DNA from: Muribaculaceae bacterium
Lineage (GTDB): Bacteria; Bacteroidota; Bacteroidia; Bacteroidales; Muribaculaceae
Assembly: GCA_017409345.1 (NCBI GenBank)
Contig: JAFQSX010000010.1
Coordinates: 1 to 32,530 of the forward strand
Length of the DNA stretch: 32,530 nucleotides
Direction: 5' to 3'
Shown here: piece after piece, positions 1,328 through 3,815 of the stretch
Position numbering within the stretch: position 1 is the first letter of the stretch
Layout of the letters: each line of letters starts with the position of its first letter
Notes under the pieces: model-generated
The model's input: the letters and a program-made list of their open reading frames with translations, nothing else
Told to the model about the DNA's origin: nothing
Databases searched by the model: none
Made by a program: the position numbers and the translations under genes

Positions 1328-3463
1328 ATGAAGACAATAAAAAGAATAGTAATGATATTTGTGTGTATGATAACATTAAGTTCTGTAAACGCACAATATC
1401 TACACCTATATAAAAATGGTTCGTTGATTAAATCATATGTAACAGAGTCAATAGATTCAATGCTTTTTGATACATCAGGAGTAGTGTATTATATGGATTT
1501 ATATAATAATGGGACAAAGTATCGAGTAGATAATTTGGGGCGAATAGATGGTTTTAAATTAGGAGGGGAACCTATTAAAAGTGGCGTCTATCTAGGTATT
1601 CTTGCATTTAGCGATGATTTTCAACTAAAACCAATCGGAGATTTAAATTCTGCGACAAAAAGTGCCTATCAGAGTTTTGTGAGTAGTCAGACAATGAAGG
1701 GTTCAACACATTTATATTATGCAGTAGAAAATGCGATTAAGCTTCTTAAAGATGCTGAGCTTCCCGATGATTTAGTTTCGGTGTCGTTGGTGACATTTAC
1801 TGATGGCCTTGATGATGGTTCTCTATTTATGACGAGTGGCGGATATACAAGCTATGATGAGTATCTTACAGAACTAAACAATCAGATAAAAAATACAAAA
1901 ATCTCAAATCTTGATATAAATGCATATGCAATAGGTTTTGATGAGGGTTTTGTTGTTGATATGGATTTGTTTAATAAAAACCTCAGAATGTTATCAAGTA
2001 AAGAAGAGAACGCCACGACGGTAAAGAGTATTCGAGATGTTGAAAATAGTTTAAAAGAGATTAGTGATCAGATTTCCCAAGAAAACCATTTTAGCAATGT
2101 CAGCGTGATAATCAATGGAAAAGAAAATGGGACTATTTTGCGTGTAACTTTAGATGGAACGACAGCAGCAACGTCGAAGAAATATATAGAAGGCACATTT
2201 AACTTTGCAGATCAGTCATTGATAAATGTAAAATATGTGGGAGTAACAAGTGAATCTGGAAGTGCGGTTCCTTATGATACCAAAATAGGTAATTCGAAAT
2301 TTCAATATGTTTTTGAAGATGTTAAAACTTTAGATGGCTCGATTATAGAACCTAAAAATATAAAATTCTGGACCTATATACCATCATCGGGCTTGTGGCA
2401 AGAAACAAACGAAGGCGATACTGGTTCAGAACCGGAGGTAGAAACACTAAAGAAGAGTGCAGTTGTAGTATTTGTGCTTGATTGCAGTAGCTCTTTATCG
2501 AATAATTTTACCGAACTTAAAACGTATGCCAATAATTTTATCTCTACACTTGCTGGCTATGGCAATGATGAAGACTTCAGTGCAATTGATTTGAGAGGTG
2601 AAACTCCAGAGTCTCCTGAGGAACCTGAGACCCCTGAATATCCCGAAGAACCGTCTGTTTTTGAAGATTTTGATATATTTTCTTCTTTGCAAAAAGACGA
2701 AATGATAGCAGTAGAGGGTGGTACCTTTACGATGGGAGCAACCGCAGAGCAAGGGACATCAGACCCATGGGATGATGAATCTCCCACACATCAAGTAACA
2801 TTAAGCGATTTTTATATCGGAAAATATGAAGTAACACAACAATTGTGGGAATATGTGATGAAATATAGTGGCACATGTGCTGATGGTTCAACGATGAGTG
2901 CATACGCCTCAGATGTGTGGTTAGGCACAAATCCCTCATCAAGTTATGGAGTGGGGAATTACTATCCTGCTTATTATGTGAGTTGGGAAGATATAGTTAA
3001 TATCTTTATTCCACGCTTGAATAAGATAACTGGCAAAACCTTCCGTCTCCCCACTGAAGCCGAGTGGGAATATGCAGCCCGTGGAGGAAATAAGAGCAAA
3101 GGTTATAAATACTCGGGGAGTAACACCATCGGCGATGTGGCATGGTACGGAGACAATGCATATGATGTAGGCTCAAGTAGTTCAAATTATGGCACTCACC
3201 CAGTAGGCACAAAAGCGCCTAATGAATTAGGACTTTATGATATGAGTGGCAATGTTTGGGAATGGTGTAGTGATTGGTATGGCAGTTATTCATCAATAGC
3301 TCAAACCGATCCGTCAGGTGCTGGTTCAGGCTCTTACCGCGTGCTTCGTGGTGGCAGTTGGTACTACCCTGCGCAGTACTGCCGTGTGGCTTCTCGTGAC
3401 TACGGAACTCCCGGCGGTCGCTTCGACTACCGCGGCTTTCGGTTAGTGTGTTCACGTCTATAG
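1328..3463 (+). CDS. Exported vWA-like / FGE-sulfatase-domain protein, candidate DGR target
   Basis: A 711-aa protein. I chose the ATG at 1328; an in-frame TTG lies two codons earlier. Residues 1-23 are a signal peptide ending VNA-Q. Residues of about 80-225 carry the later vWA elements (GILAFSDD; KGSTHLYYAVENA with T127; LVTFTDGLDD with D159). Residues of about 230-370 look beta-rich. The first vWA motif, DxSxS (DCSSS, 385-389), comes only afterwards, so the order is permuted. A Pro/Glu-rich linker (about 425-450) leads to a formylglycine-generating-enzyme (SUMF1-like, C-type-lectin fold) domain at 459-711, with LPTEAEWEYAARGG, MSGNVWEW and RGGSW motifs and a GFRLV end. Only one of the two FGE catalytic cysteines is present (C685), so binding seems likelier than FGE catalysis. 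The last ~30 codons look hypervariable. Confidence 0.85.
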   Translation: MKTIKRIVMIFVCMITLSSVNAQYLHLYKNGSLIKSYVTESIDSMLFDTSGVVYYMDLYNNGTKYRVDNLGRIDGFKLGGEPIKSGVYLGILAFSDDFQLKPIGDLNSATKSAYQSFVSSQTMKGSTHLYYAVENAIKLLKDAELPDDLVSVSLVTFTDGLDDGSLFMTSGGYTSYDEYLTELNNQIKNTKISNLDINAYAIGFDEGFVVDMDLFNKNLRMLSSKEENATTVKSIRDVENSLKEISDQISQENHFSNVSVIINGKENGTILRVTLDGTTAATSKKYIEGTFNFADQSLINVKYVGVTSESGSAVPYDTKIGNSKFQYVFEDVKTLDGSIIEPKNIKFWTYIPSSGLWQETNEGDTGSEPEVETLKKSAVVVFVLDCSSSLSNNFTELKTYANNFISTLAGYGNDEDFSAIDLRGETPESPEEPETPEYPEEPSVFEDFDIFSSLQKDEMIAVEGGTFTMGATAEQGTSDPWDDESPTHQVTLSDFYIGKYEVTQQLWEYVMKYSGTCADGSTMSAYASDVWLGTNPSSSYGVGNYYPAYYVSWEDIVNIFIPRLNKITGKTFRLPTEAEWEYAARGGNKSKGYKYSGSNTIGDVAWYGDNAYDVGSSSSNYGTHPVGTKAPNELGLYDMSGNVWEWCSDWYGSYSSIAQTDPSGAGSGSYRVLRGGSWYYPAQYCRVASRDYGTPGGRFDYRGFRLVCSRL
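3341..3460 (+). other. Candidate DGR variable region (VR)
   Basis: The last 120 nt of the coding sequence are about 59% G+C by hand count, well above the rest of the gene, and poor in A. From W678 to G703 the putative variable codons are mostly NNC: five Tyr, all TAC; two Asp, both GAC; plus CGC, TTC and GGC. Nearby upstream Tyr codons are mostly TAT. Known DGR templates in this fold have AAC (Asn) at these positions, and adenine-specific mutagenesis turns them into NNC. The invariant scaffold RGGSW...CRV...R...TP...R...GFRLV is kept. I see no second copy (template) and no reverse transcriptase in the window. Confidence 0.55.
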
Positions 3464-3497: not shown

Positions 3498-3551
3498 GAT
3501 ATTCGCTCAATAAGCAGGGCAATTTAAAGCCCGGCGAAAAGAGCGAATATC
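3498..3551 (+). other. Stem-loop just after the candidate VR
   Basis: GATATTCGCTC (3498-3508) pairs perfectly with GAGCGAATATC (3541-3551). Inside it, GCAGGGC (3514-3520) pairs with GCCCGGC (3529-3535) apart from one mismatch. It starts 34 nt after the stop codon. There is no T-run after it, so it is a poor intrinsic terminator. Hairpins downstream of VR are known to help target recognition in some DGRs, such as the Bordetella phage BPP-1 system. Confidence 0.7.
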
Positions 3552-3620: not shown

Positions 3621-3780
3621 TTACGGTGAGTCTCGCAATCGTGCACCGGCAAGCCGACATGCACTGCTCGCTCACTCGTGAGCTCTGCGAGGTTCCCTAA
3701 AAAAATTCAAATTTTCAGAGGAGAAGCTGCCAATATTATTGACAGAAGTATCATTAGCTCTCCCTCTGATTGCAAGGCAA

Positions 3781-3815
3781 TTAGGGGGAGTACGGCGTAG
3801 CCGGGAGGGGGTTAA
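3781..3815 (+). repeat. Dispersed hairpin repeat, copy 3
   Basis: TTAGGGGGAGTA, stem CGGC-GTA-GCCG (3793-3803), then GGAGGGGGTTAA. The stem equals that of copy 1 with a changed loop base. Upstream GCTCTCCCTCT resembles the inverse of the extension seen beside copies 2 and 4. Confidence 0.7.

Follow-up and report, generated by a model that had tools for sequence, protein, structure and literature searches.

The diversity-generating retroelement (DGR) of Treponema denticola is known to have remote targets, to have left targets behind in isolates that lack its reverse transcriptase (RT) and template repeat (TR), and to include an HRDC accessory protein (PMC4891356). We compare with it a gene for a 711-aa variable protein in a 32,530-nucleotide stretch of a Muribaculaceae genome (assembly GCA_017409345.1, contig JAFQSX010000010.1, positions 1 to 32,530), which we call the window. 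Like the T. denticola target TvpA, the window protein ends in an FGE-type C-type-lectin domain; an HRDC accessory is present in a related cassette, that of the genus-mate G007, and here too targets lie far from the core and persist without RT and TR. Unlike T. denticola, our organism belongs to another phylum, the window protein carries a VWA domain upstream, and the Muribaculaceae genus holds several dispersed targets per genome. Targets of both kinds, remote and leftover, have thus been described before in T. denticola (PMC4891356), and the window gene probably adds another.

Other described systems share single traits with this locus. As in the DGR of Bordetella phage BPP-1 (PMC3240598), an inverted repeat able to form a hairpin or cruciform lies just 3' of the variable region (VR); however, the BPP-1 element is carried by a phage, has Mtd as its target and Avd as its accessory, and its stem of 7-10 bp closes a 4-nt loop, as against an 11-bp stem and 32-nt loop in the window. 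In Nanoarchaeota, VR-bearing DGR fragments without an RT have been explained as fossils or as remotely diversified (PMC4372165); they resemble our case in having a VR and no RT, but their targets are unrelated proteins. In Bacteroides, of the same order Bacteroidales, it is pilin tips (cited in PMC12632263), and not VWA-FGE proteins, that DGRs diversify. C-type-lectin folds are the rule for VRs (PMC8144416). A literature search combining diversity-generating retroelements with Muribaculaceae returned, in the records seen, a liver-disease review only, and we make no claim that the DGR of this genus is unpublished.

We consider it probable that the window gene is an orphaned DGR target of the FGE/C-type-lectin kind, whose writer is most likely gone and whose formerly diversified binding surface is most likely fixed. 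There is good support for regarding the gene's 3' end as a DGR VR by descent: in G007 and in other Bacteroidota, DGRs that possess an RT and a TR have their VR on this same scaffold. We file the gene as a DGR target by descent, outside a complete DGR. What we observe is the VR signature, homology to proven VR/TR pairs, a hairpin, a fossil accessory fragment and heterogeneity at silent sites.

The variable region and its relatives in Bacteroidota

The gene comprises 711 codons and a stop (Table 1). Pfam recognizes a VWA domain (PF00092, 35.5 bits against a cut-off of 23.8) and an FGE-sulfatase domain (PF03781, 184 bits, residues 456-707). By sequence, the best PDB match of the latter is 2y3c (1.5e-32), the variable protein 1 of T. 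denticola, itself a DGR target, in an alignment that includes the VR; the window gene, as DGR targets do, carries a C-terminal VR on a C-type-lectin/FGE scaffold.

Table 1. Positions of the variable-protein gene and associated features in the window
Feature	Coordinates	Strand	Remarks
Variable-protein gene, 711 aa	1328..3463	+	Hydrophobic N terminus, VWA domain, C-terminal FGE-sulfatase/C-type-lectin-like domain
FGE/C-type-lectin domain	2693..3448	+	Nearest solved structure by sequence is T. denticola variable protein 1 (2y3c)
Variable region (VR)	3335..3445	+	Aligns gap-free to the 111-nt TR of genus-mate G007, and to the TRs of L090, L055 and L063
Non-coding element CTATTYCTAAGCTAAAA	3464..3497	+	Directly after the stop; in 12 genus genomes only behind VR-bearing FGE genes
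Inverted repeat	3498..3551	+	11-bp stem, 3498-3508 / 3541-3551, where DGR targets carry a hairpin/cruciform
Dispersed repeat copy	3755..3812	+	Another copy interrupts the HRDC fragment on contig C17

A sequence-only reading of this DNA had described the last 120 nt as G+C-rich (about 59%) and A-poor in an AT-rich gene, the putative variable codons as nearly all of NNC type where upstream Tyr is mostly TAT, and the residues as lying on a C-type-lectin/FGE scaffold, and all of this holds. Positions 3341-3463 have 58.5% G+C and 12% A, compared with 38.7% and 32% for the whole gene; 120-nt windows of at least 55% G+C start only at 3281-3344, and the richest one starting before 3200 reaches 52.5%. 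Codons 672-711 include five TAC, no TAT, two GAC, one TTC and two CGC, whereas upstream of the gene end 38 of 43 Tyr codons are TAT. The C terminus carries the scaffold RGGSW..CRV..R..TP..GFRLV.

The columns expected to vary were set independently of the window, as the 14 that are Asn in four TRs of other organisms (G007, L090, L055 and L063). At these columns the window has NNY at 13 of 14 codons, compared with 111 of 208 upstream (Fisher p 0.0027, uncorrected), and NNC at nine of 14, compared with 37 of 208 (Fisher p 0.0003, uncorrected). The NNY excess partly reflects residue choice, since Tyr, Asp, Asn, Phe and His have NNY codons only, and the NNC preference is the more telling. Mismatches of the window to each TR at template bases other than A fall largely on third bases (11/14 for G007, 15/17 for L090, 14/18 for L055 and 18/24 for L063). 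An NNC excess at the Asn columns (p < 0.05, uncorrected) was seen in 18 of 25 genes tested, a set that took in no genes of G003 or G009 and counted L024 and G011:C20, which have an identical VR and are probably one genome, as a single entry; at least one such gene occurs in nine of the ten genus genomes from which a gene was tested.

Homologous genes vary mainly at these Asn codons, with the third base kept. Among 13 genes chosen from 25 aligned (78 pairs; omitted were the G007 genes, G001c18, G006c23, L025, L026 and the C9, C12 and C26a paralogues), identity at codon positions 1 and 2 is 0.825 in the body, 0.913 in the constant VR codons and 0.336 in the Asn columns, whereas third-base identity is 0.735 in the Asn columns and 0.547 in the body. 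Ranked by variability, the Asn columns all fall in the top 29 of 240 (Mann-Whitney p 6e-10). In two gene pairs from different species with a common downstream neighbour (73% identical over 265 aa in one pair, 97% over 184 aa in the other), the bodies share 167/205 and 132/157 aa, and the Asn columns 2/13 and 2/14.

Complete DGRs were found among the relatives in other Bacteroidota, where at least 80 loci from named genomes match and 80 were examined. A DGR-type RT (IGNLTSQYFAN ... YMDD) lies within the flank examined at nine of the 80 loci, that of L067 in a frame with stops. Six of the nine show a VR/TR pair, and in four of these every mismatch is at a template A (L055 22/22, L063 11/11, L073 18/18, L090 14/14). 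The other two give 20/23 (L086) and 19/27 (L076), the latter value arising from an ungapped comparison that spans a length difference. No pair was found at L029, L066 and L067 with the tail pattern used; a narrower pattern had given L055 and L090 only. A profile built from seven of the nine RTs, searched against 397 genomes of the wider family, matched at E <= 1e-20 in 62, of which 11 were at E < 1e-80; many of the weaker matches need not be DGR RTs. At the wider-family RT loci L138-L166, which have small flanks, the pattern caught L142 and L156 only, and as these match the window VR poorly they were left unused. Separately, three viral contigs from IMG/VR (L207, L208 and L209) encode FGE domains 37-45% identical to that of the window.

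The downstream element and the genus-mates

Many of these FGE genes have in common what follows the stop codon, namely CTATTYCTAAGCTAAAA and then an inverted repeat. A 118-nt probe of this 3' stretch found eight distinct places in five of the 12 genus genomes, and all eight lie directly behind a VR-bearing FGE gene. The window hairpin, directly downstream of the VR as in other DGR targets, folds with a z-score of -3.47, and none of 200 shuffled sequences folds as well. Six of seven folded 3' stretches form hairpins (z -3.2 to -8.8), including those behind the proven VRs of L090 (-4.53) and G007 (-8.11). Efficient retrohoming in BPP-1 depends on the inverted repeat 3' of the VR (PMC3240598), and by analogy the window hairpin may have a role in homing.

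The genus itself offers one complete DGR. The RT profile found a DGR RT in one of the 12 genus genomes, G007 (E 5.5e-138), and in none of the four that are at least 90% complete; in G004 it matched longer frames twice, weakly (E 4e-9 and 8e-8). Contig C8 of G007 has, in a row, a VR, an HRDC accessory (PF00570, 2.2e-17), the RT and the TR. All 24 mismatches between the neighbouring VR and the TR are at a template A, as are 20 of 22 for a VR on the separate contig C24, so that one template fits both a neighbouring and a remote FGE gene in this genus. At one codon the VR on C8 reads TTG and the G007 TR (L107, minus strand) an in-frame TAG, a difference to be expected if the template is non-coding and is mutated at A.

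In G002 (72% complete) a gene of the orthologous VWA-FGE architecture passes directly from its VR into an HRDC gene broken across two frames, whose pieces are 50% (32 aa) and 57% (105 aa) identical to the G007 HRDC; the RT profile found no DGR RT in this incomplete genome. This is a fossil of the same cassette. The RT-less G006 and G010, both 99% complete, also have genes with an NNC excess (NNC at 10/14 and 13/13 of the Asn columns), and it follows that orphaned targets do occur in the genus.

The missing writer and competing explanations

The window's own assembly (2.09 Mb, 38 contigs) is 75% complete. It yielded no DGR RT at E values up to 10 with the profile that detects the RT of G007, and no TR with either the G007 TR as a DNA probe or the window protein as a probe, both of which detect the G007 TR. 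The sole RVT_1 match of the genome was rejected as a DGR RT, being a 1124-aa UG24-type defence RT with an HD-CE domain. This UG24 RT, a 245-aa open reading frame without a family match and a DnaG-like primase stand in a row at L018:4066-9149 (G000:C27, about 202-207 kb), a candidate anti-phage defence island.

Of the accessory, Avd or HRDC, that belongs to a complete active DGR, the genome has an HRDC fragment only. The first 111 bases of contig C17 encode a stretch 62% identical to residues 67-103 of the G007 HRDC (E 5e-9), which runs into a dispersed repeat, and no RT was seen in the 1.5 kb beyond. This fragment indicates that a DGR core was once present in the genome. The repeat is about 80 nt long; besides the copy behind the VR, others lie at positions 2-45 of the window (the contig start), at L222:96-175 and three times in L019, where they are 81-97% identical to the one on C17. 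Elsewhere in the genus, most genomes gave matches of the HRDC probe at residues ~85-157 with 30-35% identity, in frames of ~730 aa that we take for RecQ. A bAvd model matched nowhere, controls included, and is uninformative.

Homing replaces the silent sites of a VR by those of the TR, and the two VRs of G007 indeed match their TR at 20 of 20 silent-site third bases. At the third bases of constant codons the three VRs of the window's own genome agree in 12, 8 and 9 of 20 cases, and are about as diverged there as the bodies of the same genes (128/197, 126/199 and 119/197). It follows that no template common to all three VRs has recently rewritten that of the window. The sequence-only reading had taken the gene for a target of mutagenic homing, with its RT and template either lost or located elsewhere. 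Its first part stands as a VR by descent; of the two fates, loss is favoured over an active writer elsewhere because of this silent-site divergence and the repeat-cut HRDC fragment. The observations it named as refuting came out divided, in that the 75% assembly shows neither TR nor DGR RT, yet orthologous genes do show excess variation at the NNC codons.

Several observations weigh against an orphaned target. With a quarter of the genome missing, the absence of RT and TR is not proof, and the HRDC fragment on C17 is a short one at the edge of its contig. One window codon of the 14, GGA, falls outside the NNY rule, the NNC excess is not significant in seven of the 25 genes (G007c38, G001c18, G000c26a, L025, C9a, C9b and C12), and the hairpin of L024 is not significant (z -0.96; 36 of 200 shuffles as good). 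Moreover, the paralogues C9a, C9b and C26a, without the NNC signature, are identical at 18, 19 and 22 of 28 in the Asn columns compared with 0.92-0.98 in the body, so that high variability in these columns is not by itself specific.

The last point is also what would favour ordinary diversifying selection, or recombination among FGE paralogues, as the source of C-terminal variability, with no DGR at all. We regard this as very improbable, since the Asn columns combine a conserved third base with divergent first and second positions, which is the pattern left by a template, since TR/VR pairs occur on the same scaffold within the genus, and since GldK-type FGE paralogues keep that scaffold nearly invariant, their 36-residue tail being identical in five of six genus genomes with a single change in the sixth. 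A different possibility is that the gene arrived ready-made, as a duplicated or transferred target already diversified and carrying its 3' element, and that no rewriting has ever taken place at its present site. We compared the region of parE in 12 genus genomes, one of them the window's own, and no FGE gene precedes parE in any of the ten with a readable upstream stretch (892-1500 nt; that of G009 was unreadable), and the 3' element travels with such genes in all eight places. Such an arrival is, however, compatible with orphaning and merely shifts the writing elsewhere, and the HRDC fragment places a DGR core formerly in this genome; we think it unlikely.

The more serious competitor, although still a minority view in our estimate, is that the gene is an active remote target, rewritten in trans by an RT, HRDC and TR that lie in the missing quarter of the genome. 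The signature and hairpin of the window VR are intact, the off-contig VR of G007 fits its TR at all but two of 22 mismatches, and FGE genes stand at contig ends in several metagenome-assembled genomes (for example G007:C8, G007:C24 and G011:C40), which suggests that such loci assemble badly. A single TR should nevertheless have equalized the silent sites, as it has in G007 and has not here. A separate TR for each gene would evade this objection, and a private template for the window gene in the absent quarter is possible. It also speaks against an active remote target that a DGR RT was found in a single genus genome and in none of the most complete ones, though the NNC excess is found in nearly all of those tested.

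With an orphaned target, we infer a history of writing and loss, and a ligand-binding role for the protein. In an ancestor, a DGR RT with an HRDC accessory would have reverse-transcribed an Asn-rich template RNA with mutations at its adenines; the 3' element and hairpin would then have guided the cDNA, which would have replaced the gene's 3' end. Such rewriting would have left NNC/NNT codons at binding-site positions. The writer has most likely been lost here, as the undetected RT and template, the repeat-cut HRDC fragment and the divergent silent sites of the three VRs suggest, and the gene now most likely retains a fixed, once-diversified binding surface.

Apart from this gene, 280-aa FGE genes form a tandem pair on contig C9 (L021, G000:C9), with a partial one on C26 (L020:1-411). 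They have no NNC excess and are nevertheless most variable at the same columns; perhaps they are older, decayed targets.

A DGR target could thus be recognized from a single gene and then confirmed through its relatives, and within the genus one DGR family can be compared in its complete, remote, fossil and orphaned stages. We offer, as a speculation that we think rather unlikely, that VR-bearing FGE genes with their 3' homing element serve across the genus as standing docking sites while the writer of RT, HRDC and TR comes and goes. If this were true, a DGR new to the genome could rewrite, all at once, several resident genes scattered over it. The comparison has a bearing on the ways in which gut bacteria acquire, disperse and freeze hypervariable binding proteins.
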